Part shown: positions 4,439 through 49,008 of the stretch, piece after piece
How the letters are laid out: each line of letters opens with the position of its first letter
Position numbering within the stretch: position 1 is the stretch's first letter
NCBI RefSeq assembly: GCF_030651915.1
Contig: NZ_JAUSBV010000002.1
Span: 510,414 to 574,413, forward strand
Reading direction: 5' to 3'
Source: Parvibaculum sp.
GTDB lineage: Bacteria > Pseudomonadota > Alphaproteobacteria > Parvibaculales > Parvibaculaceae
Length of the DNA stretch: 64,000 nucleotides
The notes under the pieces: generated by a model
Databases searched by the model: none
Seen by the model: the letters and a program-made list of their open reading frames with translations, nothing else
What the model was told of the DNA's origin: nothing
Made by a program: the position numbers and the translations under genes

Positions 4439-4524
4439 GCCAATCCGTCGTGTGTCAGTTATAGTTGCGGGCTACAACAAGTCTTGACCTCAGAGCAACG
4501 AAAACTCGTGATGTGGAGACTCAC

Positions 4525-4800
4525 ATGGCCCTTTCGAATGTTTTGAGCCTGATTGTCTTCGTGGTAATTCTGCTGTTTTTCTTTAGATATGGAGTTGTTC
4601 ATCTCGCCTTAGAGTTGCGGTTTTATCGCGACAACAAGTGGGACTTCGGGAAAGACAGTGGTGTTTCTGTGGTCGGCGGCTTGAGGATGTTGTTTGGCGA
4701 TCGATATCTCAGCCGAGGCGTGCACAAGCTTTTTTGTCTCTCTTTTCTGTCGTTCCTCTTTGTCGTGATGATGCTCTGGTGGATGAACGGCCTACTTTGA
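4525..4800 (+). CDS. small two-helix membrane protein, unknown
   Basis: A 91-aa protein not recognised as a known family. The ATG at 4525 is chosen over an in-frame upstream start at 4465 because GGAG (4514-4517) precedes it at normal spacing. It has a strongly hydrophobic first helix (about residues 5-22) and a second one near the C-terminus (about 68-88), with a basic, aromatic middle segment. The gene is richer in A and T than its neighbours, and convergent with nrdJ, whose stop lies 30 nt away. It could be acquired or simply poorly conserved. Confidence 0.6.
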   Translation: MALSNVLSLIVFVVILLFFFRYGVVHLALELRFYRDNKWDFGKDSGVSVVGGLRMLFGDRYLSRGVHKLFCLSFLSFLFVVMMLWWMNGLL

Positions 4801-4829
4801 GCGTTCGTCTTGACCGAAGAGATACAAGC

Positions 4830-7151: not shown

Positions 7152-7271
7152 GGGGGCAGCCTAGGCGTGGCTCGGGCGCAAATCAATGTTCTTGGTTTGT
7201 ACGTAAATTATCCACAAGGCAACCTAGAACAAGATATTGAAAAACAGGATAAATTGGAGTTTTCCCCGGTT

Positions 7272-8021
7272 TCAACGTGTCGAGTCGGGATGTTTTTCCA
7301 CATGGCTTCCGGCGCGTTCGGCTTCGGCGAGAAGGCGTCCGGCCGCCGCTTCGACGCGGGTCTCCAGCGTCTCCATGAAACTCTTGCGGTCGAGGCCGGC
7401 CGGGATCGGCTCCAGAAATTCGACAATGATGGTGCCGGGGCGACGCAGGAAGCCGCGCCGGCCCCAGAAGAGGCCGGAATTCACGGCTGCGGGCACGCAG
7501 GGCACGTCCAGCTGGCGATAGAGCGCGGCGACACCCGGCTTGTAGTCGAGTTTGCTGCCCGGCGCGCTGCGCGTGCCTTCGGGGAAAATCACGATCGGGC
7601 GCTTTTCGGCGAGTGCCGCCTTGCCCTGCGCAATCAGGCGGCGGATCGCTTGCGAGCCGGCGCCGCGGTCGATGGCAATCATGCGGGCTTTCTGCGCATA
7701 CCAGCCATAAAACGGAATCCACAAGAGCTCGCGCTTCAGTACCATCGCGGGCCGGTCGAGGATGGCGGTCATCGCGATGGTGTCCCACATCGACTGATGC
7801 TTGGACGCGACGAGCACCGCGCCCTCCGGCAGCGTTCCCCGCACTTCGTAGTTTGTACCGGCCAGAACGCGCAGCAGCCGAAGTGTCGTGTGCGACCACC
7901 AGCGGATCGCACCATGGGTGAAACGGCGCGGCATGAGGAGGGCGGGCGTCACAGAAATCACGGCGACGACCGACATTGTGTAGAAAGCGAGATTGAAGGC
8001 GGCGGAACGGAGCCAGAGCAA
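7272..8021 (-). CDS. plsC: 1-acyl-sn-glycerol-3-phosphate acyltransferase
   Basis: A 249-aa membrane-associated lysophosphatidic acid acyltransferase of phospholipid synthesis. Block I HQSMWD (75-80) is the catalytic HX4D motif and FPEGTR (146-151) is the glycerol-phosphate binding block III. The N-terminal 30 residues are hydrophobic and likely anchor it in the inner membrane. It follows the YdcF-like gene by 28 nt on the same strand, in a group running ftsE-ftsX-ydcF-plsC. Confidence 0.92.
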   Translation of the reverse strand: MLWLRSAAFNLAFYTMSVVAVISVTPALLMPRRFTHGAIRWWSHTTLRLLRVLAGTNYEVRGTLPEGAVLVASKHQSMWDTIAMTAILDRPAMVLKRELLWIPFYGWYAQKARMIAIDRGAGSQAIRRLIAQGKAALAEKRPIVIFPEGTRSAPGSKLDYKPGVAALYRQLDVPCVPAAVNSGLFWGRRGFLRRPGTIIVEFLEPIPAGLDRKSFMETLETRVEAAAGRLLAEAERAGSHVEKHPDSTR

Positions 8022-8049
8022 GGATGAGGTCCTTTACGCGGAAGGCCGT

Positions 8050-8706
8050 TCAGGACGGCATGGAAGACTGGCGATAGGCCAGCGCGAGCAGAAACTTTGT
8101 ATATTCGGAAACCAGCAGCCGCGTGGTGCCGGGATAGGCCCACCAGCCGTCGAGGTGCAGCGTGTCCTGGAAGACCGGGTAGGCGACGATTTCGACCGTC
8201 GGCATGGCACGGCTCAGTTCCAGCCGCGCACGGGGAAGATGGTAGGTGCTGGTGACGAGGATCACCGAGCGGTAATCGTTGCGCCGGACCCACTCGGCGG
8301 TCTCGGCCGCGTTACCGATGGTGTTCTCGGCCATCCGCCCGAGGTCGACGCAGCAGTCGAATTTGTCCGCCTCGCCCGGCACGATGTTCTTCAGCGATAT
8401 GGGGGTCACGTCAGGATGCACGCCGGTGATCAGCAACCGCGTGCCCTTGCCCTCGTCGAGCAGCCGGTAGGCGACGGTGATGCGGTCGGGTCCGCCGGTC
8501 AACGCAACGATGCCGTCGGAAACCGGTATCTCAGCGGGCGGTGTGCGGTGGAGTTCGGCCGTGAAGAGAAAAAAACCGCCGACATAGGCAACTGCCAGAA
8601 GCGCCGCAAGACCCGCAGCGATACGGATGATGTGCTGTCCGGCTCCTCGCCGCAGTGTGCCGCTGGCCTTCATATTTGCGTTTGTCGCCATCGATCTCGT
8701 CATCAT
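8050..8706 (-). CDS. YdcF/SanA-family (DUF218) membrane protein
   Basis: A DUF218 protein: an N-terminal transmembrane helix followed by a domain containing DGIVALTGGPDRI, LLITGVHP and VTSTYHLPRA, the usual YdcF-like blocks. Family members act in cell-envelope or vancomycin-exclusion functions, mostly undefined. Two adjacent ATGs at 8706/8703 are preceded by GTGGAAG. An ATG at 8742 would add 12 residues, and ATGs at 8691 and 8673 are also possible, so the start is uncertain. It lies between ftsX and plsC on the same strand. Confidence 0.8.
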   Translation of the reverse strand: MMTRSMATNANMKASGTLRRGAGQHIIRIAAGLAALLAVAYVGGFFLFTAELHRTPPAEIPVSDGIVALTGGPDRITVAYRLLDEGKGTRLLITGVHPDVTPISLKNIVPGEADKFDCCVDLGRMAENTIGNAAETAEWVRRNDYRSVILVTSTYHLPRARLELSRAMPTVEIVAYPVFQDTLHLDGWWAYPGTTRLLVSEYTKFLLALAYRQSSMPS

Positions 8707-8818
8707 GCTTCCACGCCCAGACCAGCGCCATCGGCGCCTCATCTGGGGGCAAGTCTAGCACAGGCAGTCAGGCTCCGGCATATGGCAAGCTGGAGGCAGG
8801 CGCCCGCATGCTGGTGCC

Positions 8819-9778
8819 TCAGAGCATGCGCTCAAGGCTGCGCATGACCGTTATCCGGGCCGTCAGAACGGCGACGGCCGCGGCTGCGAAGGGCACGACC
8901 GCAAGCACCGGGTAGTCTGTCGGCTGAAGCCCCGATATGGGAACCATGAACAGGCCGTCGCCGCCGCCCGTGAAGGTGAGCGTCAGGAAAGTCAAAGCCG
9001 AAAGCGCGAGACCAATCAGGCCACCACGAAATCCCAGATGCAGGAAGTGCCGCTGCACTTCTGCGGCAATGAATTTGTCACGTGCACCGATCAGATGGAG
9101 CACTTCAACCACTTCACGGTTTGCGGAGAGTCCGGCTCGCGTCGCAAAGGTCACGATCGCAATCATGGTTGCGGCGACGGCCGCGAGAATTCCGTATGCG
9201 AGCAACGTGGCCGCGCGTGCTGCACGCCGCAGTTCGCTGCGCCACTGCCGGTGTGTGTCGAGCGTTGCACCGGGCGCTGCTCCGGCGATGTCTGTGGCGA
9301 GGATTGCGAGATCGGGAGGCGCGGCCGCGTCGATGCGAATGTCGACCAGCCGAGGCAGCGGCAAATCCTCGGTAACATTGCCCGTCCCGAGCCACGGTTC
9401 GAGCAAGGCTTCCGTATCGGCGCGGGACAAGGCCGTTGCCGAAAGAATACCGGGTGTTCGATCAAGAAGCGCCATCACCGCGTCGATCTGTTCTTCGGGT
9501 GAAGTCGTGGCCGAGGGCTTGATCTGCACGGTAAGCGCGCCGGACAGATCGCGCGTCCAGTCTTGGGCCACCCGGTTGACCGAGAGCGCCGCACCAAGCG
9601 CAAGGCTGGCCAGAAAGCACATGGCCGCAATGACCAGCACCAGAGAAAGGCCGGTTGCACCGGCGGCCGGCATCACGCTTCTGGTTTCGACGAGAAGCCC
9701 GGCCAAGATGGCGCCGGTGCCGCGCGGCTCGCTGTGGAAGGTCGGTGCCGGGTCGGGGGTGCGGGGTGTGTCAGCCAC
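8819..9778 (-). CDS. ftsX: cell division ABC permease FtsX
   Basis: The inner-membrane partner of FtsE, in a complex that controls periplasmic peptidoglycan hydrolases at the septum. About 319 aa from the GTG at 9778, which overlaps the ftsE stop (GTGGCTGA). An in-frame ATG at 9856 lies deep in ftsE and is rejected. There is a hydrophobic helix near residue 45, a large periplasmic segment, and three C-terminal helices with the FtsX-like pattern NREVVEVLHLIGA. Confidence 0.9.
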   Translation of the reverse strand: MADTPRTPDPAPTFHSEPRGTGAILAGLLVETRSVMPAAGATGLSLVLVIAAMCFLASLALGAALSVNRVAQDWTRDLSGALTVQIKPSATTSPEEQIDAVMALLDRTPGILSATALSRADTEALLEPWLGTGNVTEDLPLPRLVDIRIDAAAPPDLAILATDIAGAAPGATLDTHRQWRSELRRAARAATLLAYGILAAVAATMIAIVTFATRAGLSANREVVEVLHLIGARDKFIAAEVQRHFLHLGFRGGLIGLALSALTFLTLTFTGGGDGLFMVPISGLQPTDYPVLAVVPFAAAAVAVLTARITVMRSLERML

Positions 9779-10430
9779 GGACAGCAAGCCCTCCCTTGTG
9801 CAGCACCAGTTCTGGCGCGCCTGCCGCGTCCACAAGGGCGCGATCGTGGGTGGCAATCAGCACCGAGGTGCCAAGACGGTTGAGTTCGACAAAAAGACGC
9901 AGCAGGCGCTGGCCCATTTCGGGGTCGACATTGCCGGTCGGTTCGTCGGCCAGCAACAGGTCGGGTTGGGCGACGACGGCGCGGGCAATCGCGGCGCGCT
10001 GCTTCTCGCCGCCCGAAAGCGTCGGTGGTTTTGCGCTCAGGCGATCTCCAAGGCCGACCCATGCCAGCAATTCCTCGACGTCGGCGCGGTAGCTCTCCTC
10101 GGTCCGGCCCTGGATTTTCAGGGGCAGCGCAACATTCTCGTAGGTCGTCAGGTGGTCGAGCAGGCGGAACTCCTGGAAGACGACACCGATGCGGCGGCGC
10201 AATGGCGGCAGTTCCGCGCGGGGCAGCGTCGCAATGTCCTTGCCGAACATGGTGATCAGGCCGCGCGAGGGCCTCGTTGCCAGAAACATCAGCTTCAGCA
10301 GGGAGGTCTTGCCGGCGCCGGACGGGCCGGTCAGGAAATGAAAGGATGCCGGCGCGAGGTGAAAGCTCACATCGCGCAGCACTTCCGGCCCCATGCCGTA
10401 GCGCATGCCCACATTTTCAAAGCGAATCAT
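9771..10430 (-). CDS. ftsE: cell division ABC transporter ATPase FtsE
   Basis: A 219-aa ABC ATPase with Walker A GPSGAGKT (35-42), Q-loop VVFQEF, signature LSGGEKQR (138-145) and Walker B LLLADEP (158-164). Short length, the MIRFENVGMRYG start and adjacency to ftsX identify FtsE. The ATG at 10430 is preferred; a TTG at 10454 would add 8 residues not seen in the family. It is divergent from the zinc-ribbon gene at 10639, so promoters for both should lie in 10431-10638. Confidence 0.93.
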   Translation of the reverse strand: MIRFENVGMRYGMGPEVLRDVSFHLAPASFHFLTGPSGAGKTSLLKLMFLATRPSRGLITMFGKDIATLPRAELPPLRRRIGVVFQEFRLLDHLTTYENVALPLKIQGRTEESYRADVEELLAWVGLGDRLSAKPPTLSGGEKQRAAIARAVVAQPDLLLADEPTGNVDPEMGQRLLRLFVELNRLGTSVLIATHDRALVDAAGAPELVLHKGGLAVRG

Positions 10431-10638
10431 GGACGCGAAGGTATCATGGAACAATCGTGCCCATGCAGGCTCAGGAGATCAAAAAACGGCGTTCTACCTA
10501 GCTTTTTGAATTTTTAAGGGCATCTTCTTAACGCGCCTTTAACCACGGGGCGGCTTTCAATAGGCTTGTGGAAATGCGGAACGTGGCAGGTTGTGCCCCG
10601 GTCCGTCACGGAACTCGTTGCCATCAATGTCAAACTGA

Positions 10639-11532
10639 ATGTCCCGGATGATCATCACCTGTCCATCCTGCTCGACGCGATACCCGGTGGAGGCTTCCTC
10701 CTTTGCACCGGCAGGACGGAAAGTGCGTTGCGCCAAATGCGGCCAGAGTTGGCATCAGGCACCGCCGGCCGACCTTGACGAACGAACGGAAGCAGGTGCC
10801 GAGACGACAGAGGTTGCACCGGAAGAGGGGCCTGCGCCAGCGCCGGCATTTGCTGCCGCGACGGTGCGCAAGAAGATTTTTGGCGAGAAGCCGACACCAG
10901 ACAAAGCGCCGGAAAATCCGGCGCCTCCTGGCGGCAACTCTTCTGACGACAATGACGATGTGGTCTTTGCGGATCCGCCCGGCGTTCCCTCAGGCACCGC
11001 CGACATTGGCAATCGGTTTCGCGCCCAGGTTCGACGAGCGGCGTCGATGCGGCGCGGCAAGGCACTCAATGCAGCCGGCTGGGTTGCTCTGGTGCTGTTC
11101 GTGGGCGGCACCCTGATGGGTGGCTATCAGTGGCGCGCCGATATCGCATCGTTCTGGCCGGCAACGACTCACGTCTATGCGGCGGTTGGTGCGCCGGTCA
11201 ATTTGCGCGGCCTCGAGTTCCGCAATGTTGCTTATGAACGGCAGGAAGAGCAGGGCCTGCCGGTGCTGGCCGTGACCGGTGAAGTCGTCAATGTCAGTGG
11301 CAAGGCCGTCGCGCTGCCACGATTGCGCGTCGGTTTGCGCGACGGCGACCAGAACGAACTCTATCATTGGACATTTGCGCTCGGTCAGAACGAATTGCCG
11401 GCAGACGAGGTGGCGAGCTTTGTCACCCGACTTTCGAGCCCACCTGTCGAAGCGCGCGACATTGAGGTTCGTTTCGTTCGGGAGCAGGACGACGCGGTTG
11501 CGGCAGATGCCGCTGCTCCTGCGACGGAATAG
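10639..11532 (+). CDS. zinc-ribbon (MJ0042/DUF3426-like) membrane protein
   Basis: A 297-aa protein. The first 40 residues form a zinc ribbon with two CxxC pairs (CPSC at 8-11, CAKC near 32-35), the MJ0042 motif often seen at the start of alphaproteobacterial membrane proteins. A Pro/Ala-rich linker follows, then one transmembrane helix (about 150-170) and a C-terminal beta domain with the DUF3426-like ending VEARDIEVRFV. The function is unknown. It is separated from hpt by 4 nt, so probably co-transcribed. Confidence 0.85.
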   Translation: MSRMIITCPSCSTRYPVEASSFAPAGRKVRCAKCGQSWHQAPPADLDERTEAGAETTEVAPEEGPAPAPAFAAATVRKKIFGEKPTPDKAPENPAPPGGNSSDDNDDVVFADPPGVPSGTADIGNRFRAQVRRAASMRRGKALNAAGWVALVLFVGGTLMGGYQWRADIASFWPATTHVYAAVGAPVNLRGLEFRNVAYERQEEQGLPVLAVTGEVVNVSGKAVALPRLRVGLRDGDQNELYHWTFALGQNELPADEVASFVTRLSSPPVEARDIEVRFVREQDDAVAADAAAPATE

Positions 11533-11536
11533 GGTC

Positions 11537-12082
11537 TTGAGCCAGATTGCGCCGCCCGGCACCGACATCACCGTTCTCTATCCAGCGGAGGAGATCAGCC
11601 ACCGCGTTCATGCGCTGGCCGGCGAGATCGCTGCCGCAATGGGCCGTAATCCGCTTGTTGTTCCGATCCTGAAAGGGAGCTTCATTTTCGCCGCCGATCT
11701 TCTGCGTGCGCTGCACGACGCGGGCGTAGAGCCGGATATGGATTTCATCGGCCTTTCCAGCTATCGCGCGGGCACACGGTCGCTCGGCGAGGTGCGTCTT
11801 GTGCGCGACACAGAGGTGGAGATCATTGGCCGCGACGTACTGATTGTCGACGACATACTGGAATCGGGTCGGACGCTCGCCTTTGCCAAAAACCTGATGG
11901 CCGCACGCGGTGCACGCACGATCCGCACCTGCGTCTTGTTGCACAAGCCAGGCAAGCTCGCTGTCGATGTTGTTGCTGATTTTGTCGGTTTCGATTGCCC
12001 CGACCGATTTGTTGTCGGCTATGGCATGGATGTCGCCCATGCATATCGACAATTGCCATTTATCGGTTTTGTGGAGAGCTGA
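11537..12082 (+). CDS. hpt: hypoxanthine phosphoribosyltransferase
   Basis: A 181-aa purine-salvage enzyme converting hypoxanthine (and likely guanine) plus PRPP to IMP/GMP. The PRPP loop VLIVDDILESGRT is at 101-113 with the catalytic Asp pair, and LKGSFIFAADLLR (45-57) is the usual HPRT block. No ATG is available before the conserved N-terminus. TTG at 11537, four bases after the preceding stop and just after AGGG, gives the expected length, so a TTG start is proposed. The receiver gene follows after 2 nt. Confidence 0.92.
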   Translation: MSQIAPPGTDITVLYPAEEISHRVHALAGEIAAAMGRNPLVVPILKGSFIFAADLLRALHDAGVEPDMDFIGLSSYRAGTRSLGEVRLVRDTEVEIIGRDVLIVDDILESGRTLAFAKNLMAARGARTIRTCVLLHKPGKLAVDVVADFVGFDCPDRFVVGYGMDVAHAYRQLPFIGFVES

Positions 12083-12084
12083 CG

Positions 12085-12465
12085 ATGGCGCACATTCTTG
12101 TCGCTGAAGACGAGCCCGATGTCAGAACTTTTGTTATGCGTGCGCTCAAGGGCGCAGGTCACGAGGTCGATGGCGCGGGCGACGGGAGTGCGGCGCTTGA
12201 GGCGTTGTCGCGCGCGCGCGCCAACAGGGTTCCTCATGATCTGTTGCTGACCGACATTTTGATGCCGGTGATGGACGGTGTGTCGCTGGCGCTTGCCGCT
12301 TCGCGCGATGCACCGGCGCTGCGCATCATGCTGATGACAGGCTATTCCGATCAGCGCGAACGCGCCCACGGGCTCGAAGCCATCATCCATGACGTTCTAC
12401 TCAAGCCATTCACGCTCGACGAGCTTGTTCTTCGCGTTGCGTCGGTGCTGGACAGCACCGCCTAG
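12085..12465 (+). CDS. single-domain response regulator, CpdR-like
   Basis: A 126-aa stand-alone receiver domain: acidic pocket EDE (8-10), phospho-acceptor D57 (LLLTDIL), TGY switch region and the Lys of LLKPF. The beginning (MAHILVAEDEPDVRTFVMRAL) and the absence of any output domain resemble CpdR, which in Caulobacter and Sinorhizobium targets ClpXP proteolysis during the cell cycle; assignment to CpdR is by resemblance. It ends in a palindromic CTAG that also provides the stop of the convergent TIGR02302 gene. Confidence 0.85.
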   Translation: MAHILVAEDEPDVRTFVMRALKGAGHEVDGAGDGSAALEALSRARANRVPHDLLLTDILMPVMDGVSLALAASRDAPALRIMLMTGYSDQRERAHGLEAIIHDVLLKPFTLDELVLRVASVLDSTA

Positions 12466-15023
12466 AAGCGCTGTAGCAGCCGGTCGAGATATTCGAGTTC
12501 GATCCGGGATCGGCCGAGTTCGGCGGCGCGCCTGCGCAACTCTTCGAGAATTTCCCGTGCGCGTTGCATGTCTATCTTGTCGGGCACGGTGACGTCCTGC
12601 CCCGAGTCCTGCCCCGGCATTGACCGGCCGAACGGATCGGTCCGTGACTGGCCGCGTCCCCGGCCCTCCTGCCGCCCCGCCATCCCCTGCATCAGCTGGT
12701 CGGCCATGGCTTGTGCGCCGGCGCGCATTTCGTCGATCGCCTGTCCCTGCGCGCCGGCGGCGCGGTCGGCACGGCCGTCTCCCAAGCGCTCCCCGGCATC
12801 CTGCATCGACCGTTCGGCATTGCCGAGTGCAGCCGGGACCTCGGCGCCGCTTTCGCCCAGCTGCCGAAGAATCTCGCCCAGCTCGTCGCGCAATGCCTGC
12901 TGTGCATCGGCAAGCGCCTCGAGCGACGGGGCCGATCCCGCCCCGCTCTCCTGCGGCAGCTGGCCTGGCAAGCCGGCACCGGATTGCTCTCCCTCGCCGC
13001 CATCCTCGTCAGCGCCGTGCTGCATCGCGCCGAAGGTCTGATCCATCAGATCGCGCTGTTTGGCGATCATCTCGCCCATCTTGTCGATCGCCTGTGCCAT
13101 GGCCGCTTCACCCGGACCCATCGGTCCGGCCTGCCCGGGCATTTGTAGATTCTCGAGGATGGCTTGAAGCTGCTGAAGCATGGCCTGGGCCTGGTCGCGC
13201 GCGCCGCTTTGAGCAAGTTCGCCGATCGCGTTCAGCATGTCTTCAAGTTGCCGGCGTTCGATCGTCGGAGCATCCGTGAGGGCGTCGATCGACGGCAGCA
13301 TTTCGAGCATCGGTCCCTGGTCCGCCATCAAGGCGTCCATGTAGCGATTGAAGGCGTCCTTCAAATCCGACATCAACCGAGCGATCTCGTTCTCGCTTGA
13401 GCCCTGGCTCAAAGCATCCGCGAGCGCTTTCTGTGCGTCGCGAAGATCCCTTTCGGCAAGCGAAAGATCACCGTTCTCGATGCGCAGCGCGATTGACCAG
13501 AGAAGATCAAAAATGCCCGTAAGGTCGGCGTCTCGTCGCGCCTCAGTCAATCGCCAATAGGCGGCACGAAGGGAAAGGTAGACGACCTTGTCGTCAATAT
13601 AGCGATCGGCGTCCTGCGTAAAATTGTCGATGAAGCGCGCAACACTGGCGCCCGAGCGCGGATCAAGCGCGAGACGGCGGCGTTGTTCGATAATCGCGCT
13701 TGCCAGGGGGTCGGTGAATATGCGGGCCGGCAGCATCGTCTCGACCGGTTCGGCCATACCCTCCTGGTTTGCATCATCGCGTGCCACCAGCGTGATCGTC
13801 ACCGGCAGTCCAGCCCAGGGATGAGGTGTCAGATCAGCATAGGTTTCGCCCGTGACCTCGCGTGGACGCAGCGATGGCAGCGGCAGTTGTATATGAGGCG
13901 CGGTCACGCGCGGTTCGGCCGCCGGTCGCGCCTCTTCCTGTTGGGGGGTTGCGCCAAGATCGAGCTCGATGCGCGCCTCGGCGCCGGTGATACCGTAGTC
14001 GTCCGACATTTTGTAGGCGAACCGCAAGGCACCCGATGCCGATTGTGCCAGCGGCTCGCTCAGTTCGATTTGCGGTGCTTCGTCGGGCGTCACTTCGACG
14101 CGCCAGCCGCGGATCATGCGACCTCCTTCGGTCAGTGTGAGATCGGCGGTCACTGTCAGCGAAGCATCGATCATATGGTTGTTGTCGCCGACGGTCTTCA
14201 ACGCCTGGGGCCGCTCTCGCGCATCGCCATTGTGGCTTTCGAGAACAGGCGCATTCCTCAATCCATGCACGCGCAACGACAGGACGCTGCCTTGTGGTGT
14301 GCGGATCTCTCCTTGCGCAAGCTGAACCTGATCGCCACGACGGTCGAGGTAGTGCGGCGGCTTTCCGGTATAGGCCGGCGGTGTGATCCAGGCTTCAATG
14401 GTTGCCTGCATGGAGACGCCTGCACCCGGCAGCAGCGCGGCGGCAATGCGGTCGATGCGGCCGGGGCCTGTGCCGGCAATTGCGACGACCAGCAGCAGCA
14501 ACACGGCGGCGCGCAACGCGCGTGGGTCGCGCGCGGCAAGTCCCGGCTGCGGCAGGCTGAGGCGGAGCTTGCGCAGTCGCCCGGTCACCCAGTGCTGATG
14601 TGCCACCCAGAGCGCCGGGTCGCCGGTGGATTCCGAGGCGACATCTTCATAGGCTGAAAGCGGGGAATGGTTCAGGCCGGAGGATTTTTCGAGATGACGA
14701 AAGGCACCGGCTCGCGTCGGCCATTCGAATTCACGAAACCCGCGCCAGAGCATCCACACGGTCAAGGTACCGAAGCCCGCCAGAAATATCCAATGCAGCG
14801 GCAGAGGCATGAATGCGAAAGCGCCGAACAGGGCCAGCACCAGGAATATCCCGGCCAAGCCGGCTGCCGGCCAAAGCGCGGGCCAGAATGCCTGCCAGGC
14901 CAGCAGCGCGCGCGCAATTCGTACACGCCGCTCGATGTGCGGCGGCAGCCGCATGGCGTGTGTTTCGACCGTATCCTGTGCGTTCGGTTCGGGGCCGGTC
15001 AAAGCTTTCCGCCCTTTTTTCAT
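12462..15023 (-). CDS. TIGR02302/DUF4175 family membrane protein
   Basis: A large (853-aa) alphaproteobacterial protein. There is an N-terminal region with two or three hydrophobic helices (about residues 40-85 and 170-190), a beta-rich extracytoplasmic middle, then a long helical region (about 540-800) very rich in Gln, Met, Ala and Gly with many AMAQ/AMLQQLQ-like heptads, ending in a basic helical tail. The family's function is unknown. It is last in an argH-lptM-lysA-TIGR02302 run, 30 nt after lysA. It shares the tetranucleotide CTAG stop with the convergent receiver gene. Confidence 0.88.
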   Translation of the reverse strand: MKKGRKALTGPEPNAQDTVETHAMRLPPHIERRVRIARALLAWQAFWPALWPAAGLAGIFLVLALFGAFAFMPLPLHWIFLAGFGTLTVWMLWRGFREFEWPTRAGAFRHLEKSSGLNHSPLSAYEDVASESTGDPALWVAHQHWVTGRLRKLRLSLPQPGLAARDPRALRAAVLLLLVVAIAGTGPGRIDRIAAALLPGAGVSMQATIEAWITPPAYTGKPPHYLDRRGDQVQLAQGEIRTPQGSVLSLRVHGLRNAPVLESHNGDARERPQALKTVGDNNHMIDASLTVTADLTLTEGGRMIRGWRVEVTPDEAPQIELSEPLAQSASGALRFAYKMSDDYGITGAEARIELDLGATPQQEEARPAAEPRVTAPHIQLPLPSLRPREVTGETYADLTPHPWAGLPVTITLVARDDANQEGMAEPVETMLPARIFTDPLASAIIEQRRRLALDPRSGASVARFIDNFTQDADRYIDDKVVYLSLRAAYWRLTEARRDADLTGIFDLLWSIALRIENGDLSLAERDLRDAQKALADALSQGSSENEIARLMSDLKDAFNRYMDALMADQGPMLEMLPSIDALTDAPTIERRQLEDMLNAIGELAQSGARDQAQAMLQQLQAILENLQMPGQAGPMGPGEAAMAQAIDKMGEMIAKQRDLMDQTFGAMQHGADEDGGEGEQSGAGLPGQLPQESGAGSAPSLEALADAQQALRDELGEILRQLGESGAEVPAALGNAERSMQDAGERLGDGRADRAAGAQGQAIDEMRAGAQAMADQLMQGMAGRQEGRGRGQSRTDPFGRSMPGQDSGQDVTVPDKIDMQRAREILEELRRRAAELGRSRIELEYLDRLLQRF

Positions 15024-15053
15024 TGGCTGGGCATGCAGCGGACGATAACGCCG

Positions 15054-16322
15054 TCAGTCCAACCAGCTCGGAATAATATCCTGATTCAGGATTGCGTCAT
15101 AACTGGGGCGCGCGCGCACCTCGGCAAAGTCGCTGCCGCGGACCATCACTTCGGGGATCAGAGGTCGCGTGTTGTAAGTGGATGCTTGCACTGCACCATA
15201 GGCGCCCGCCGACATGATGGCGACGAGATCGCCGCTCTTCAGGCGCGGCAAGTCCCGGCCCTTGGCAAAGAAATCGCCGGTTTCACAAACTGGCCCCACG
15301 ACGTCGTAGGCAAGACGCTCCGCGCCTTCAGCCGGCTCCGCAATCGGGCGGATGTCGTGGAAGGCATCGTATAGCGTTGGCCGGATAAGATCGTTCATGG
15401 CGGCGTCGAGAATGAGAAAGGCTCGGTCGTCGCCAAGCTTCTCATAGATGACGCGTGCGACGAGAATGCCGGCATTGCCAGCGATCAGGCGACCCGGTTC
15501 GAAGGTCAGATCGCAGCCGAGATGGCCGATCGTACGCTTCACCATCGCCGCATATTCGTCCGGATGCGGCGGCACATCGTTGTCGCCGCGATAGGGAATG
15601 CCGAGGCCGCCGCCGAGGTCGATATGGCGGATCGCGTGGCCTTCGGCACGCAACGCTTCGACCATGCCGGCGACGCGTTCAAAGGCGGCCGCAAAAGGCT
15701 CGAGTGTCGTCAGCTGGCTGCCGATATGCACATCGATGCCGCTGGCCTCGATGCCCTTCAGTTCGCGCGCCCGTGCATAGACGGCTGGCGCGCGCTGCCA
15801 GGAAATGCCGAACTTGTTTTCCGCCTTGCCGGTTGCGATCTTTTCATGCGTCTTCGCATCGACATCGGGGTTGACGCGAAGGGCGACGCGCGCGATGAGA
15901 CCGCGCGCTGCGGCCAGTGCCGCCAGAAGCTCAAGCTCGGGTTCGGATTCGACATTGAACTGGTCGATGCCCGCTTCGAGCGCGAAGGCCATCTCGCCTT
16001 CGGTCTTGCCGACGCCTGAAAAGACGATCTTGTCAGGTGTCACGCCTGCTGCCAGCGCGCGGCGAAGTTCGCCTTCCGAAACGACGTCGGCGCCCGCGCC
16101 GAGACGGGCCAGCGTCGCGATTACGGCTAAATTGGAGTTGGCTTTGACCGAATAACAAATGCGGGCCGGTTGGTTTCTGAAGGCCGCAGCGAAGACATTG
16201 TAGTGCCGTTCGAGCGTCGCGCTGGAATAGCAATAGAATGGCGTTCCGACCGCCGCCGCGATGTCGGGGATCGCCACGTCCTCGGCATGCATGATGCCGC
16301 CGCGATAGTCGAAATGATGCAT
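15054..16322 (-). CDS. lysA: diaminopimelate decarboxylase
   Basis: A 422-aa fold-III PLP enzyme catalysing the last step of lysine synthesis (meso-DAP to L-lysine). The PLP lysine is K60 in CYSVKANSN. HIGSQL (near residue 197), the glycine-rich GGGLGIPY phosphate loop and the GPVCETGD active-site block are all present. It follows lptM by 10 nt. Confidence 0.96.
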   Translation of the reverse strand: MHHFDYRGGIMHAEDVAIPDIAAAVGTPFYCYSSATLERHYNVFAAAFRNQPARICYSVKANSNLAVIATLARLGAGADVVSEGELRRALAAGVTPDKIVFSGVGKTEGEMAFALEAGIDQFNVESEPELELLAALAAARGLIARVALRVNPDVDAKTHEKIATGKAENKFGISWQRAPAVYARARELKGIEASGIDVHIGSQLTTLEPFAAAFERVAGMVEALRAEGHAIRHIDLGGGLGIPYRGDNDVPPHPDEYAAMVKRTIGHLGCDLTFEPGRLIAGNAGILVARVIYEKLGDDRAFLILDAAMNDLIRPTLYDAFHDIRPIAEPAEGAERLAYDVVGPVCETGDFFAKGRDLPRLKSGDLVAIMSAGAYGAVQASTYNTRPLIPEVMVRGSDFAEVRARPSYDAILNQDIIPSWLD

Positions 16323-16332
16323 GGTGCGGCGT

Positions 16333-16554
16333 TCAGTCGTCGTTGCCGCGCGTTGCGCGGGGTGTGCCCATGCCGTCTTGCATCGGGAGGAAGTCGATCG
16401 GCGGCTCTTCGTCTGCGGCGAGTTTGGCGTCGGCTATAGCCGGTGCGGGTGCAGCGCCGGGCGGTGGTTCAAGCGGACCCTTCTTGCCGCAACCGGCTAT
16501 GGCAGCAGCGAGAAAGACACCAAGTATGGCGATCGTGACGTATCGCAGGGTCAT
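16333..16554 (-). CDS. lptM: LptM-like small lipoprotein
   Basis: A 73-aa lipoprotein. A hydrophobic signal peptide ends in a lipobox with the acceptor Cys at about residue 22 ([10 protein letters not shown]). The GCGxKGPL start of the mature protein is the hallmark of the YifL/LptM family, which in E. coli assists maturation of the LptD LPS translocon. It is located between argH and lysA, the conserved position in proteobacteria, overlapping argH by 4 nt. Confidence 0.9.
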
Positions 16555-17960
16555 TTTCCCCGTCCCTTTCCAGCGCCTTCGCGATCGAGTTCGGCGCGCC
16601 AGCGTGCGGCCGCCGCACGCACATTGTCGGGTGCCGTGCCGCCGAAGCTCATGCGGCTTGCGACCGAGTTGTCGACGCCCAAAACAGAGTATAGCTCATC
16701 GGTGATAGCAGGCTCCACCTCACGCATTTCGTCGAGCGTCAGCTTGTCGAGGTCGACACCCTTCTTCTCGGCCTTCGCCACCAGCGCGCCGGTTGCATGA
16801 TGCGCCTGCCGGAACGGCATGCCAAGAGCCCGCACCAGCCAGTCGGCAAGGTCGGTCGCGGTCGAAAAGCCGCGCGACGCCGCGGCGCGCATTGTCTTTT
16901 CGTTGACGGTCAGGGTCTCGACCATGCCGGTCATGGCTGCAAGCGACAGTGACAGTGCGTCGAGGGCATCGAATGTCGCTTCCTTGTCTTCCTGCATGTC
17001 TTTCGAATAGGCAAGCGGCAGACCCTTCATGACAATCAAAAGCGTCGTCAACGCGCCGACGACGCGGCCCGTCTTGGCGCGTACCAGCTCGGCCGCGTCG
17101 GGGTTGCGCTTTTGTGGCATGATCGACGACCCGGTGGTGAAGCTGTCGGGCAGCCGCACGAAGTCGAAGCCCGGCGTCGACCAGATGACGATTTCCTCGG
17201 CCAGCCTGGAAAGATGCGTCGCACAGATCGCGGCGGCAGCCAGTGTTTCGAGCACAAAGTCGCGATCCGACACGCTGTCGAGCGAATTGCGAGTCGGGCC
17301 GTCGAAGCCGAGATTGGCAGCCGTCCTGGCGCGGTCGATCGGAAACGACGTGCCGGCCAGCGCGGCCGCGCCCAGTGGGCTCTCGTTGAGCCGCCTGCGC
17401 GCGTCGGAAAGCCTGCCCCTGTCGCGCGCCGCCATTTCGACATAGGCGAGGCAATGATGGCCAAATGTCACGGGTTGCGCGGTCTGCAGATGTGTGAAGC
17501 CCGGCATGATCGTTGCCGCATGGGCCTCGGCCTTTGCGACCAGTGCGAGCTGAAACTCCCGGAGCTGACCGTCGAGATGGTCGATCGTATCGCGGACATA
17601 GAGCTTGAAGTCGGTCGCCACCTGGTCGTTGCGTGAACGCGCGGTGTGGAGCCTTCCTGCCACGGCGCCAATCAACTCCGCGAGCCGCGACTCGACATTC
17701 ATGTGAATGTCCTCGAGCTCGCGCTTGAAGACGAAGCTGCCCGCCTCGATTTCGGCCAGCACCGCATCGAGTCCTGCGACGATTTTATCGGCATCATCCC
17801 TTGAGATAATTCCGGTTTCGGCCAACATGGCCGCATGCGCCTTCGAACCCGCGATATCCTGGGCAAAAAAGCGCTTGTCGAAGCTTATGGAGGCGTTGAT
17901 TTCCTCCATGATCCGGTCGGGGCCGGTGCCGAAGCGTCCGCCCCACATCTTGTTGCTCAT
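16551..17960 (-). CDS. argH: argininosuccinate lyase
   Basis: A 469-aa enzyme cleaving argininosuccinate to arginine and fumarate. Family motifs are TARSRND (106-112), GFTHLQ (154-159) and the signature flexible loop [12 protein letters not shown] (277-288) with the catalytic Ser. Full length. It starts 54 nt from the divergent thioredoxin-like gene and leads the argH-lptM-lysA-TIGR02302 group. Confidence 0.97.
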
Positions 17961-18013
17961 CGTCTTTCTCCGGGCGGCCGCGAGCCTGAACCGGGGAGGA
18001 AACGGATTGTTCC

Positions 18014-18631
18014 ATGGTTCAGATCGGACCGAAGTCTATCGCTATTCTGGCCGGCGCCGCCCTTTTGATCGTCGGGGCGGTATACTTGATCGTCTGGGGG
18101 GGCGGCAACCCGGACAATCTTGCAGACGGAGCCAAGCCACCGGCCCTGCAGGCGCTGGCTGTGGGCGACATGGCCAATTTCCGAGCCAATACGACCCCTG
18201 CGGCCGTCCCCGATGTCGGTTTCGAGGGGGAGGAAGGCCGGCATCTGACGCTCGGTGACTTCGAGGGTCGGCTTGTCCTCCTCAATCTCTGGGCGACCTG
18301 GTGTGCGCCCTGCCGTGAGGAAATGCCGGCACTCGACCGGCTGCAGGCGGCGCTGGGGAGCGAGCGTTTCGAGGTCGTGGCGCTCAGCGTCGACCACCGG
18401 GGCCACGGCCTTGTCCGACGTTTCCTTGCCGAAAACGGCATCGACCGTCTCGGCTTCTACATCGACCCCACCGCGCGGGCCAATGTCGCGCTCCGCGCCT
18501 TTGGTCTTCCGACAACGCTGCTGATCGCGCCGGATGGTCGCGAGATTGGACGTCTGGTTGGTCCGGCTCATTGGGATAGCCAGGATGCCAAAGTCCTGAT
18601 CGAGGCGGCACTCAACCTTTCAATGCCGTGA
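18014..18631 (+). CDS. TlpA-family thiol:disulfide oxidoreductase
   Basis: A 205-aa membrane-anchored periplasmic thioredoxin-like protein. One transmembrane helix (about 9-28) is followed by a redoxin domain with the active site WCAPC (96-100) and the cis-Pro loop FGLPTT. TlpA proteins reduce specific periplasmic disulfides, for example in cytochrome oxidase assembly or cytochrome c maturation. It is divergent from argH, a conserved arrangement in this group. Confidence 0.9.
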
Positions 18632-45037: not shown

Positions 45038-45224
45038 GCCCCCCGCGAATGAGAGCCCCTAAAGGCTCTCATCCGCCTCCGCCGGCACCGTCAGCGGAAT
45101 TTTCAGGTAGCGCTTGCCATTGTCTTCGGCCGGCGGCACGTGGCCGGCGCGGATATTGACCTGGATCGAGGGCAAGAGCAGCACGGGCGCTGCCAGCGTC
45201 GCGTCGCGCTTTTCGCGCATGGCG
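45038..45224. repeat. 187-bp direct repeat, left copy
   Basis: Matches 48097-48283 in the same orientation over 187 bp with about 8 mismatches (counted by eye). It contains the small hairpin GAGAGCC/GGCTCTC (45051-45070) and the last 54 codons plus stop of an MBL hydrolase gene on the minus strand. Together with the right copy it brackets the caspase islet. Confidence 0.9.
45059..45224 (-). pseudogene. 3' fragment of the persulfide-dioxygenase-like MBL gene
   Basis: Encodes the last 54 residues (from AMREKRDATLAAP to ADESL) with exactly the same amino acids as residues 243-296 of the intact gene at 48118-49008. All nucleotide differences between the two are therefore silent. There is no N-terminal part; upstream (towards 45414) is unrelated sequence. 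Confidence 0.88.
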
Positions 45225-45414
45225 CCCGGCGGAGATCCCATGTTCGCTTTTCTCACAGCCATCGAACTCATGCCGTCAGGGGACGGAATGCTTCCCGTCC
45301 ACACCGAACAGGGCATCTGGCTCGACGGCGGCGGCGCGGGCTGCTGGCGAAGGAGGGACGAGGAACGCAAAACAAATTTAACGACAGTCTGAACAATCAA
45401 TATCCGACTACTTA
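45225..45414. other. unassigned left-junction sequence of the islet
   Basis: The first about 135 bp are GC-rich and the rest becomes abruptly AT-rich near 45365. A short forward open frame (ATG 45240 to TGA 45392, 50 codons, with GGAG upstream) is possible but resembles nothing known. The composition break probably marks the true edge of the foreign DNA. Confidence 0.4.
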
Positions 45415-47208
45415 CTATTCGTGTCTGGATGATAATAGAAACCAAGGTACTCGATCAGGGAATATGAGTGCGCTGCATATAGCTCCGGCAGCGACAGCGG
45501 AATTCATGGGTCGAACATTGGCGGAATCTGGCCATGCAGAATCTAGATCGGCGATGCTCCAAATTCCATGCCCAATGGTGAAGGTTGCATTCTCGCCGCC
45601 TTCAATGTGCTGAAGTGCGAACTTCGTGTAATCCTCTGCGACGTAAGCACTGATACTCAGGTGGTCGAGGTCTTCGAGGGATTCATCGAAGACATCTACC
45701 AAGTCGAACGGCTTTGCGCATCTGAGCAAGACGGCTATCGCTTCAGTAGGCCGTGCGAGAATGTCCGCGGCGTCACTGTAGTCGGCAGTCTGCCTGGCTG
45801 TGAGATACTTAAGAATTTGGTTTGGCTTCAAGTGTGCGTTGGCAATCAACCCCTTCGCGTCCAAGGCTGAGTTGAACAGGAGACTTAGAATGGTCTCTCC
45901 TTCTGATCTAAGTCCAAGTCTGCTGGCTGCGCTAAGGCCTAGGGCGATATACGGAGCTTGTGTGTCATTCAACAGAACTACAGAGGGAGCGTATTGTTGT
46001 CCAATGTGTTCCAACACTTCTCTAAACTTCTCAACAGGAAACAATTCAGGTTGCCCCAAGATTTCACGCAAATGGAATGCGGCACCCAGCCACCCGATAA
46101 TCTTGGAAATCCGAATTGGCAGTGCGTACAATTCGCCTAGTCCGGTCTTGTTTCCTAGTAAGGCATATTGATCTGAGGCTATCGCATTTGTCAGTTCGTT
46201 TAGGGTGTCTTCGATTTCGTTGATGACAGAGCCGACTTCTTCTAGGACATGTAGATCGACCGACGGGTGAGTCTGGCAATATCGCAGAAGGGCAGAAACA
46301 GATACTGCCAGCACCTCAGCTTTGCGAAACCTATCCGCTGTATCTTTTGCAGATGATACAAGGCCGCTGGTAAGTCTTTGCACGTTGGAAATCAGGTCAG
46401 ATGCTGAATCCGAACAGCTTTCAAGTGCGGGTTCAATCGCATCCATAAATCTCCGTGGTTGCCACTTTTCGAATGTTCGTTCCGCTTTTGCTTCGTAGTG
46501 GGGATTTCGACAGAAGATCGAACGTTGCCTTATGCTAATTGCAGTAAAGCAGGGACTCTGATCGGGTGCATTTTTGAGTCTGTTGGCAACAGCCGGACCG
46601 ATATCCATCAGATCGAGCGCAGCGGTAGTGTCTTGCACAAACACACTTCCAGAAATGCAATCGAGAAGAGCGTTTGTGCCTAGCCCCCCAGCATCGGTCT
46701 CGGATGCTTCTTGGTCGCGTGCGGACATTGCAAGCAGCGTGATGGCAGGAGAATTTGCGTTTCCTGTAATCTCTGCTTTGGCCAACACGCCGAGGTCGAC
46801 CGTTAATCCGCCGCTGTAGCATGCGTCCAATATGATGTTGCTTTGAGATGGGGCGGAGCTTGCTATGTTTGTAAATAACTCCGACAGCCAAAGGCTGGTC
46901 ACTGGCAATTGGTCAAGCCGCGTATCCTTTAGGCAAAAATAGAATCCAGCTTTGTCAACGATGCCGTGCCCTGCGAAGAAAAATGTAAATGTGTCAAGTT
47001 TCTCATTCGAGAACAAAATTGACTTTAGGGCCAATCTAACTTCGTCCAGCGTTGGAGACAGCAACAGCTGAGATGTGCTCGGGTGGTAGTTGCCGATCTC
47101 GTCCCGAATTAGTTTGTCGTAAATTCGTTGTGCGTCGAGTTCCGCGCCTGTGAGCGGCGAAATGCAATTATAGCTATTACAGCCGATTGCTATCAGCGCA
47201 CGCTGCAT
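45415..47208 (-). CDS. caspase-family protease with long helical C-terminal region
   Basis: A 597-aa protein. Residues 1 to about 230 form a caspase-like peptidase C14 domain: an N-terminal strand RALIAIGCNSY, catalytic His81 in FFFAGHG and catalytic Cys130 in IILDACYSGG, both in perfect family context. Residues about 240-597 are mostly helical with no recognisable domain and may sense or bind the trigger. The gene is visibly poorer in GC than its neighbours. It overlaps the partner gene upstream by 16 nt. Bacterial caspase-like proteases often act in phage defence or programmed cell death, cutting a partner protein; that role here is inferred from the family, gene pairing and islet context. 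Confidence 0.88.
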   Translation of the reverse strand: MQRALIAIGCNSYNCISPLTGAELDAQRIYDKLIRDEIGNYHPSTSQLLLSPTLDEVRLALKSILFSNEKLDTFTFFFAGHGIVDKAGFYFCLKDTRLDQLPVTSLWLSELFTNIASSAPSQSNIILDACYSGGLTVDLGVLAKAEITGNANSPAITLLAMSARDQEASETDAGGLGTNALLDCISGSVFVQDTTAALDLMDIGPAVANRLKNAPDQSPCFTAISIRQRSIFCRNPHYEAKAERTFEKWQPRRFMDAIEPALESCSDSASDLISNVQRLTSGLVSSAKDTADRFRKAEVLAVSVSALLRYCQTHPSVDLHVLEEVGSVINEIEDTLNELTNAIASDQYALLGNKTGLGELYALPIRISKIIGWLGAAFHLREILGQPELFPVEKFREVLEHIGQQYAPSVVLLNDTQAPYIALGLSAASRLGLRSEGETILSLLFNSALDAKGLIANAHLKPNQILKYLTARQTADYSDAADILARPTEAIAVLLRCAKPFDLVDVFDESLEDLDHLSISAYVAEDYTKFALQHIEGGENATFTIGHGIWSIADLDSAWPDSANVRPMNSAVAAGAICSALIFPDRVPWFLLSSRHE

Positions 47209-47846
47209 AGCGCTGCTCGGGTTTTGAATTTCAGTTTTCGCAGCGCTTCTCGCTCCAGTGCGGCTTTGGACTTTTCATCTTTGAGTCGTTCAATTTCCTC
47301 GTGGTACTCGGGTGGTTGGGCTTCTAGTTCAGCGATAAATTTACTGGGATCGGCGCCGGTATGGACTTCTGGAAGTGTCACCCGACCTTGACGATCTACC
47401 CCAAATTCGATCTTTCTCATCATTTCAAGAAAGCCGGCTGCAAATGAACCTGCGTCGGCTGATGACACAACGTTCCCCGTTTCCTCGCAGACCTTGTTGA
47501 TACTGCTGTAGATCATTTCCGAGAATTGCTTGTTCAGTTCAGCCGCTACGTGTTCTACGAAGCGCAGAATAAGACTGAGGTCGTTCGCTACAATCTCATC
47601 AAATGAATTGGTCCACTCGACGGCGTGAGTTTGAAATCCACCTTCGCGCACTTCGGGATTTGCGCGGCTGGTCCAAGTCTGACCATGCGTGTAGCTGTGA
47701 CTGTTCTCGGGAGGCAGTGTTTGGCGAACATGCTGTTTCTGAAGTTCCTCTATGATCACAAAAATAGAATCTTCCAGAGCGTCAGCTTCAGTTCTGAGCC
47801 CGAAAAATTCAGGACGACTCTTGGTGTCTTTCATTTTCTTGATCAT
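47193..47846 (-). CDS. caspase-associated partner protein, unknown family
   Basis: A 217-aa soluble protein with no signal peptide or membrane helix, not recognised. The N-terminal part (about 15-40, LEDSIFVIIEELQKQ) and middle (about 80-130) are amphipathic helices. A charged Glu/Lys-rich coiled-coil-like C-terminus (about 175-210) follows. Its stop overlaps the caspase start by 16 nt, implying coupled translation. A GAGG RBS precedes the ATG at 47846. It could be the protease's substrate, activator or inhibitor. It does not look like a gasdermin because it lacks hydrophobic segments. Confidence 0.75.
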   Translation of the reverse strand: MIKKMKDTKSRPEFFGLRTEADALEDSIFVIIEELQKQHVRQTLPPENSHSYTHGQTWTSRANPEVREGGFQTHAVEWTNSFDEIVANDLSLILRFVEHVAAELNKQFSEMIYSSINKVCEETGNVVSSADAGSFAAGFLEMMRKIEFGVDRQGRVTLPEVHTGADPSKFIAELEAQPPEYHEEIERLKDEKSKAALEREALRKLKFKTRAALCSVR

Positions 47847-47994
47847 GGATCCTCGAAGCAGGTCCAGTTTGGAACTCCTGGCTTTTTCTGCACCTTGCCG
47901 TTGTACCGCAGCTGATACTCTTCGCCTTCACGCCTTCCGCCAGCGCGACGAGCGCAATGAGGCGACGGCAAGCGTCGAAAGAAGTACGCGGCAC
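47843..47994 (-). pseudogene. possible frameshifted small secreted protein
   Basis: The GTG at 47994, after GGGAG, opens a frame reading a signal-peptide-like stretch (CRRLIALVALAEGVKA). One base out of frame directly after it comes EEYQLRYNGKVQKKPGVP and then NWTCFEDP-stop, whose TGA overlaps the partner gene ATG (ATGA). A single-base indel near 47925 would join them into a roughly 50-aa exported protein. The alternative is an intact 55-aa ORF from ATG 48010 in the last frame. Which one is real cannot be decided here. Confidence 0.4.
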
Positions 47995-48096
47995 ATTTTT
48001 CTCCCAGCATCCTTTCCTTGTGCGGAGTAGAATCGGCGGTGATGGAGGCCGAGTGTAGCAGGGCGTCCGCTTTCCGGCACAGGCGATTGTTTGGGC

Positions 48097-48283
48097 GCCC
48101 CCCGCGAATGAGAGCCCCTAAAGGCTCTCATCCGCTTCCGCCGGCACCGTCAGCGGGATTTTCAGGTAGCGCTTGCCATTGTCCTCGGCCGGCGGCACGT
48201 GTCCGGCGCGGATATTGACCTGGATCGAGGGCAGCAGCAGCACGGGGGCCGCCAGCGTCGCGTCGCGCTTTTCGCGCATGGCG
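48097..48283. repeat. 187-bp direct repeat, right copy
   Basis: Right partner of 45038-45224, exactly 3,059 bp away. It comprises the hairpin GAGAGCC/GGCTCTC and the 3' end of the intact MBL gene. Confidence 0.9.
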
Positions 48284-49008
48284 ACGAAGCTGTCCTCGCT
48301 GACGCCTTCATGGACATGGACATTGTGGGCCCGCTGTTCGCCCACCGTCGTCTCCCACACGTAATGGTCGCGGCCTTCCGGCTTGTAGTCGTGGCAGAGG
48401 AAGAGCCGCGTCTCGTCGGGCAGCGCCAGCAGCTTCCGGATCGACCGGTAGAGCGTGCGCGCGTCGCCGCCGGGGAAGTCGGCCCGTGCCGTGCCGTAAT
48501 CGGGCATGAAGAGCGTGTCGCCGACGAAAACCGCATCGCCCAGCTTGTAGGAAATGCAGGCCGGCGTATGGCCCGGCGTCGCGATCACTTCCACCGTCAA
48601 CTCGCCGATATTGAAGCGCTCGCCTTCCTTGAACAAATGGTCGAATTCGCGCCCGTCGGTCGGGCCCTTCTGGTTGAAAACAGGCGTGAAGATTTTCTGC
48701 ACAGCGTCGATATGCGCGCCGATGCCGATCTTGGCGCCGGTCTTCGCTTTCAGATATTGCGCGGCCGAAAGGTGATCGGCATGGGCGTGCGTCTCGAGAA
48801 TCCATTTGATCTCGGCCTTTGCCTTCGCCGCTTCTTCGAGCAGGCGGTCGGCGCTGGCGGTCGAGACCTTGCCCGATTTCGGGTCGAAATCGAGCACCGG
48901 GTCGACAAGGGCGGCCGTGCGGGTCGCCGGATCGACCACCAGATAGCTCACCGTATTGGTGGCCTCGTCGAAAAAGCCTTGTATTTCGGGCTTTTTTTCG
49001 TTGCTCAT
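48118..49008 (-). CDS. blh: persulfide dioxygenase-like MBL-fold hydrolase (Blh type)
   Basis: A 296-aa metallo-beta-lactamase-fold protein with the metal-binding THAHADH motif (73-79), PGHTPACISY, GDTLFMPDYGTARADFPGG and LCHDYKP, the pattern of ETHE1/Blh-type sulfur dioxygenases that oxidise glutathione persulfide. It is divergent from the BigR-like regulator, as in the bigR/blh locus of Agrobacterium and Xylella. The 3' end is duplicated at 45059-45224 by the islet event. Confidence 0.9.
   Translation of the reverse strand: MSNEKKPEIQGFFDEATNTVSYLVVDPATRTAALVDPVLDFDPKSGKVSTASADRLLEEAAKAKAEIKWILETHAHADHLSAAQYLKAKTGAKIGIGAHIDAVQKIFTPVFNQKGPTDGREFDHLFKEGERFNIGELTVEVIATPGHTPACISYKLGDAVFVGDTLFMPDYGTARADFPGGDARTLYRSIRKLLALPDETRLFLCHDYKPEGRDHYVWETTVGEQRAHNVHVHEGVSEDSFVAMREKRDATLAAPVLLLPSIQVNIRAGHVPPAEDNGKRYLKIPLTVPAEADESL

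Follow-up and report, generated by a model that had tools for sequence, protein, structure and literature searches.

A caspase-fold protease gene and its overlapping partner in a Parvibaculum islet: a candidate two-gene immune module whose partner also accompanies predicted nucleases

Results

Protease and partner genes

The window analysed here (64,000 nucleotides (nt) of contig NZ_JAUSBV010000002.1 from Parvibaculum sp.) carries an insert at 45225-48096 with two genes, in which the gene for a 217-residue partner protein lies upstream of the gene for a caspase-family protease of 597 residues and overlaps it by 16 nt. A first-pass annotation had described a segment of lower guanine plus cytosine (GC) content with a C14-type protease retaining His81 and Cys130, and this description holds. 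Whereas the window has a GC fraction of 0.631, the insert has 0.509 and the pair 0.495. Residues 4-227 match Pfam Peptidase_C14 (PF00656) with an expectation value (E) of 1.8e-12 (47.9 bits, cut-off 21.4), and the FAGHG (His81) and DAC (Cys130) motifs are invariant in all nine homologues that were aligned. PADLOC gave a single match to the protease, to a model named 'caspase' (7.4e-9), and PHROGs gave three families of unknown function. The NCBIfam model of the EACC1-associated caspase (NF047832) matches the C14 domain at 6.9e-21 with 74.7 bits, under its cut-off of 140, and scores 59.3 and 61.4 bits with two relatives. No sequence relatives were found in the PDB. A predicted model (mean predicted local distance difference test (pLDDT) 53) had metacaspases such as Yca1 and the paracaspase MALT1 as its best Foldseek matches, and has helices from residue 236 to 534 at low pLDDT.

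The partner had been called unrecognised, and no family in Pfam, NCBIfam, PADLOC or PHROGs matches it above cut-off. Scattered weak matches, among them DUF6398 (E 0.038) in the window partner and, in homologues described below, YjaA (E 0.007, genome G649), JAB (E 0.0029, locus L046) and Maf (E 0.062, genome G077), were dropped because the other members do not share them. Neither the window partner nor the other partners examined match a nuclease or gasdermin family; for a gasdermin fold there was no family match in Pfam or NCBIfam, and the predicted model is helical but too poor (mean pLDDT 44) to weigh against such a fold. By hydropathy, no transmembrane (TM)-like segment was seen in the 12 partners tested out of 14 (nine caspase-type and three nuclease-type, as defined below), the highest 19-residue mean among them being 1.23.

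Caspase-type loci in other genomes

All eight other full-length protease homologues have an adjacent partner (a Sulfitobacter plasmid, six Pseudomonas loci and one faecal scaffold). These loci were all located through the protease, and with the window they make nine caspase-type loci. Separation of the homologues in other genomes, which had been named beforehand as an outcome that would speak against a joint module, was thus not seen. Including the window, the loci fall into three lineages that are approximately 30% identical to one another. In all nine the genes share 1-16 nt when the longest open reading frames (ORFs) are taken, and the C-terminal region of the protease is conserved across the nine.

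The Pseudomonas loci came from a profile of the C-terminal region, built from three sequences, which was run against contigs of 84,980 species and returned eight loci in this genus. Six of them encode a full-length protease, with the partner immediately upstream in each. The remaining two (L047 and L048) hold only C-terminal fragments of the protease, of approximately 133 and 88 residues, with no partner found there, and do not enter the count of pairs. The window protease as a single query gave no confirmed match in the same contigs; these scans rest on short peptide patterns and are non-exhaustive. At E up to 1e-20 it found only its own genome among 385 of its class. No partner was found in any of the 39 further genomes sampled from the order, one of which (G024) has a match to the caspase domain only (residues 6-188). 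Among plasmids, 39 records match the window protease and one, from Sulfitobacter, covers at least 80% of it; the other 38 are not counted because they are not full-length homologues. A plasmid search with a Pseudomonas partner returned the Sulfitobacter plasmid alone. Viral-contig scans with the C-terminal profile, the partner profile, the nuclease-type profile and the G649 effector confirmed no relative.

On the Sulfitobacter pontiacus plasmid (pls1) protease and partner are encoded side by side, and a serine recombinase and insertion sequence (IS) genes were recognised by eye. An apparent second copy was rejected as terminal redundancy (99.9% over 13.7 kb): the record, CP144550.1, repeats its ends (4820-18577 and 336000-349750) as an uncircularised assembly does, so that copy counts taken from it mislead. 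The faecal scaffold that encodes both genes (MT835554.1, L039) is deposited as 'Bacteriophage sp.'. Its protease shares 97% identity with the P. frederiksbergensis protein, and the scaffold carries Gabija and Septu-like genes; judged by this gene content, it looks like a bacterial defence island and not a phage.

The same partner beside a different effector

Whole-genome searches with partner profiles, in which the later profiles included the earlier finds, gave matches in 2 of 398, 3 of 398 and 3 of 385 genomes. Six genomes in total have a match, namely the window genome, G649, G1043, G949, G077 and G177. In all five new genomes, which are alphaproteobacteria, the partner overlaps a gene of 542-568 aa that is not a caspase, with no Pfam caspase match in any of these effectors. 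A pattern near the effector start, E.GKD..A.D..G.....QLKG, is invariant in the five, and on the strength of this motif the effector is predicted to be an Mrr-like PD-(D/E)XK nuclease; we call these loci nuclease-type.

The homology between the partners of the two types is secure on profile comparison. The caspase-type partner profile, run with hmmsearch over 2,037 ORFs, recovers the partners of G649, G1043 and G949 at 9e-10 to 3e-15 and nothing else, and hhalign of the two types gives P 2e-16 (with three nuclease-type partners). Between the two effector types, a distant relationship of the C-terminal regions is suggested by a weak signal: hhalign with five nuclease-type sequences gave a score of 36.3 (E 5.9e-4), where 60 column shuffles reached at most 20.3 and the reversed alignment 12.7. 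In the unrooted partner tree one branch (99/99) splits caspase-type from nuclease-type, so that a single effector swap suffices. The partners also differ at their C-terminus. Those of caspase type end in a tail of 9-14 residues with 4-5 lysines or arginines (9/9), and those of nuclease type in the four residues [VIRK]L[AV]G with at most one such residue (5/5). A profile of the nuclease-type effector matched 2 of 210 genomes, both with a partner, which is a weak test as the profile already contained both of them. Neither the effector nor the partner of G649 returned any match in plasmid searches. Taken across the loci, the partner is by homology the constant component, probably together with the C-terminal region of the effector, and the predicted N-terminal enzyme is exchanged between loci.

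Defence genes near the pair

PADLOC was run on chosen neighbours of the pairs. It identified GajA and GajB of the Gabija system at L039, L042, L043, L044 and L046, and L041 has two genes 96-97% identical to GajA and GajB of L039. Gabija is thereby present in the fetched flank of five of the six Pseudomonas loci and of the scaffold L039, which also carries a Septu-like PtuA/PDC-M01 pair. At L045 a SEFIR protein (bSEFIR in PADLOC) stands in place of Gabija. Two GajA/GajB model pairs and both orientations occur among the Pseudomonas loci, which indicates that these are not one frozen island. The nuclease-type pair of G649 is flanked by an MNT-HEPN fusion and a protein with an AbiJ N-terminal domain (AbiJ_NTD3) (L051 5503-6414 and 9613-10977).

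Two further neighbourhoods were inspected. By eye, with families not searched, the nuclease-type pair of G1043 (L059) has an AbiE-like gene pair upstream (5576-7371) and a relaxase downstream (11443-12732). At L046 two overlapping genes lie directly upstream of the caspase-type pair (2581-6050); they have no Pfam match at E 0.1, the second starts like a restriction endonuclease by eye, and they are possibly another unnamed system.

Anatomy of the insert

The features of the islet are collected in Table 1. The pair had been placed between two 187-bp direct repeats, and these are present; both further prove to be the last part of blh, the gene at which the insert is located. The copies are identical at 179 of 187 positions. 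The 8 mismatches all fall within 45077-45191, and the 33 nt at the blh-proximal edge are identical in both. An empty site, for which the first-pass annotation had suggested looking in relatives, is present in the same-genus genome G027 (locus L031), where the DUF2938 gene adjoins blh directly.

Table 1. Features of the Parvibaculum islet and its insertion target (window coordinates)
Feature	Coordinates	Strand	Evidence or remark
Left direct repeat	45038..45224	-	Orphan copy of the blh 3′ end that adjoins the DUF2938 gene, an arrangement shared with G027 L031
Left insert end	45225..45414		No recognised gene
Effector gene, C14 caspase-fold protease (His81, Cys130) with C-terminal region ~240-597	45415..47208	-	Pfam PF00656, 1.8e-12
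Partner gene, 217 aa, constant component	47193..47846	-	Overlaps the protease gene by 16 nt; adjacent homologue in 8/8 other full-length caspase-type loci and in five nuclease-type loci
Right insert end	47847..48096		Upstream of the partner gene
Right direct repeat	48097..48283	-	3′ end of the intact blh gene
blh / persulfide-dioxygenase-like gene of the metallo-β-lactamase (MBL) fold	48118..49008	-	Insertion target, outside the module; NCBIfam NF040641, 1.4e-120

Since a gene end stands on both sides of the insert, the arrangement is the one expected of a circle that integrates at, or recombines with, the 3′ end of a gene, and the insert would have entered in this way, coming to be flanked by two copies of that end. 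Simple duplication of a target site was also considered as the origin of the repeats and not adopted, as the 8 mismatches fit either duplication with later divergence or allelic import. The left copy is nearer to G027, G018 and G013, the right copy to G034 and G026, and G024 is equidistant. In a search of 40 relatives the left insert end gave two short matches only (24-30 bases) and the right end three (approximately 28-50 bases). A promoter would be expected in the right end, for which a consensus scan listed no promoter-like site. No integrating enzyme was recognised within the insert, and inspection by eye of the ORFs at 40-53 kb showed neither an integrase nor a transposase, no family search of the whole window having been made. 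The match of blh to NF040641 (403 bits) is under the curated cut-off of 625.

Comparison with known systems

The closest system in logic is the EACC1-caspase system (Kaur et al. 2020, PMC7159879), in which a small constant 5′ gene precedes a gene with an N-terminal caspase that can be replaced, there by a cyclic nucleotide monophosphate (cNMP) cyclase. The match of the C14 domain to the EACC1-associated model adds to the likeness. The differences are that EACC1 is built on one TM helix whereas the 12 partners tested here have no TM-like segment, that no EACC1 match was found, that the score of the caspase is below the NF047832 cut-off (74.7 against 140), and that the C-terminal region, highly variable in that system, is conserved in our nine loci.

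In Canu (PMC12799240) a caspase occurs with a downstream MBL pro-nuclease gene, CanA was purified as a complex with CanB, and the loci lie in defence islands. Our pair resembles it in combining a caspase-family protease with a partner and in its defence-island loci. It may differ in its C-terminus, which is predicted to be helical at low confidence (residues 236-534) and is Ig-like after the caspase in Canu. The Canu MBL motif HxHxD[HA] is found in none of the ORFs of at least 80 aa in L041-L046, L039 and L004 as fetched, and in the window it occurs only in blh (HAHADH) and in one ORF antisense to another gene.

Olokun (OloA/OloB) enters here through the name of a PADLOC model and otherwise from general knowledge. 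One of the five nuclease-type effectors matches OloB weakly (7.3e-4, residues 9-191), which we take as a lead; the other four and the window protease have no such match, and no Olo match was found in nine partners (window, L004, L044, L046, L051, L059, L060, L065 and L066). In the TIR-caspase system (type IV Thoeris) a caspase-like effector is controlled by a partner gene, as may be the case here. Unlike there, no TIR match was found in the window partner, which is the sole other gene of the islet, or in four nuclease-type partners, and the plasmid matches that carry a caspase-plus-TIR annotation align to 53% of the query with 26% identity.

The pair is not filed under EACC1-caspase, Canu or Olokun, because no TM helix was seen and the curated score was not reached (EACC1-caspase), the MBL motif was not found (Canu), and four of the five nuclease-type effectors and the nine partners have no Olo match. 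The earlier statement that the architecture is no recognised named system therefore stands as far as the defining features of EACC1-caspase and Canu were tested, and no description of the caspase-partner pair was found in the open-licence PMC literature searched.

Discussion

We consider it fairly probable that the pair is a horizontally acquired two-gene immune module resembling abortive-infection systems. A two-component defence or cell-death module in a mobile-looking islet had been suggested from the window alone, and this part of the suggestion gains from the adjacency in all eight other full-length loci and from the Pseudomonas copies in defence islands.

The enzyme varies while the partner, and probably the C-terminal region, stays; read most simply, this constant unit would sense the trigger and control the enzyme. 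The partner is encoded first and its gene overlaps that of an effector whose N-terminal enzyme is exchanged between loci. Partner and C-terminal region may then form a sensing and gating unit that keeps the enzyme inactive until infection releases it, and a released protease would cleave proteins so that the cell is arrested or dies. The lysine- and arginine-rich tail of the caspase-type partner is perhaps an inhibitory or cleavable element. Metacaspases and paracaspases, the proteases with the DAC motif, cut after arginine or lysine, and as the best Foldseek matches include Yca1 and MALT1, we put forward the hypothesis that the tail may be a gate or a cleavage element. As a tentative proposal, with close to an even chance of being right as a whole, the loci would represent a hitherto undescribed modular immune platform in which the unit of partner and C-terminal region drives one of two unrelated killing enzymes, a caspase-fold protease or a PD-(D/E)XK nuclease, the caspase-type partner having a basic gate or cleavage tail and Olokun maybe being a distant nuclease-type branch.

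Several points weigh against these interpretations. The models are poor (mean pLDDT 53 for the protease and 44 for the partner), so fold and interface are predictions only. Pfam gives just Mrr_cat, at E 0.081, in one of the five nuclease-type effectors. The hhalign probability for the effector C-termini is just 28.9%, with 14% identity over 205 columns; with one nuclease sequence or with three, the alignment falls short of significance (E 0.27 and 0.21), and shuffled columns make a lenient control. One Pseudomonas clade, 79-97% identical, accounts for seven of the nine caspase-type loci, and their neighbours are therefore partly inherited together; the Gabija adjacencies are a plain count. By eye, no other defence gene was recognised beside the window islet, and the nuclease-type loci L060 and L066 lie among core genes. 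The difference in the tails may also be a single evolutionary event.

A toxin-antitoxin or addiction module, in which the partner would be the antitoxin of a toxic enzyme and stabilise mobile islets, phage defence being incidental, is in our view unlikely. It would account for the small first gene that overlaps the enzyme gene, for the sparse distribution (six genomes with a partner match) and for mobile contexts such as pls1 with its serine recombinase and IS genes, but it is not favoured by the loci that lie in defence islands alongside Gabija and Septu-like genes, and a second region as large as that on the enzyme would be unusual for the toxin of such a module.

We think it quite unlikely that the caspase acts on a dedicated pro-effector, so that the partner would be a zymogen, like gasdermin or the CanC pro-nuclease, activated by a protease cut. 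Pairs of protease and pro-effector are the closest functional precedents (PMC12799240), and the K/R-rich tail is what a DAC-type site, expected from general knowledge to prefer a basic P1 residue, might cut; against this, the partners match no nuclease or gasdermin family, and the partner is kept in five of five nuclease-type loci beside a predicted nuclease and no caspase. For the latter reason a role of the partner as caspase substrate and nothing else, which was one of the three originally offered (substrate, sensor or inhibitor), is disfavoured. Sensor and inhibitor remain, and adaptor joins them.

That the pair serves regulated proteolysis outside defence, or is a hitchhiker in decay, is very improbable: the window copy stands alone in a core region by eye and L047 and L048 are reduced to C-terminal remnants of the protease, but catalytic residues and both ORFs are intact across three lineages and the neighbours elsewhere are those of defence islands.

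How cell-death immunity arose is under active study, and bacterial caspases are part of that question. If an immune module with an exchangeable enzyme is the right reading, the same partner ahead of a protease or a nuclease would indicate that the sensing unit, rather than the enzyme, is the conserved core, and the loci would provide a natural protease/nuclease pair for domain swapping. None of the profile libraries searched matches the partner family above cut-off.

Variation at the blh 3′ end

The stretch beside the 3′ end of blh varies among the six relatives compared, and for this reason the site may be an insertion hotspot. In another genome of the genus (G034, L027) a possible trypsin-like peptidase gene occupies this position between DUF2938 and blh on the minus strand (6682-7494; PF13365, E 0.0037, below cut-off).

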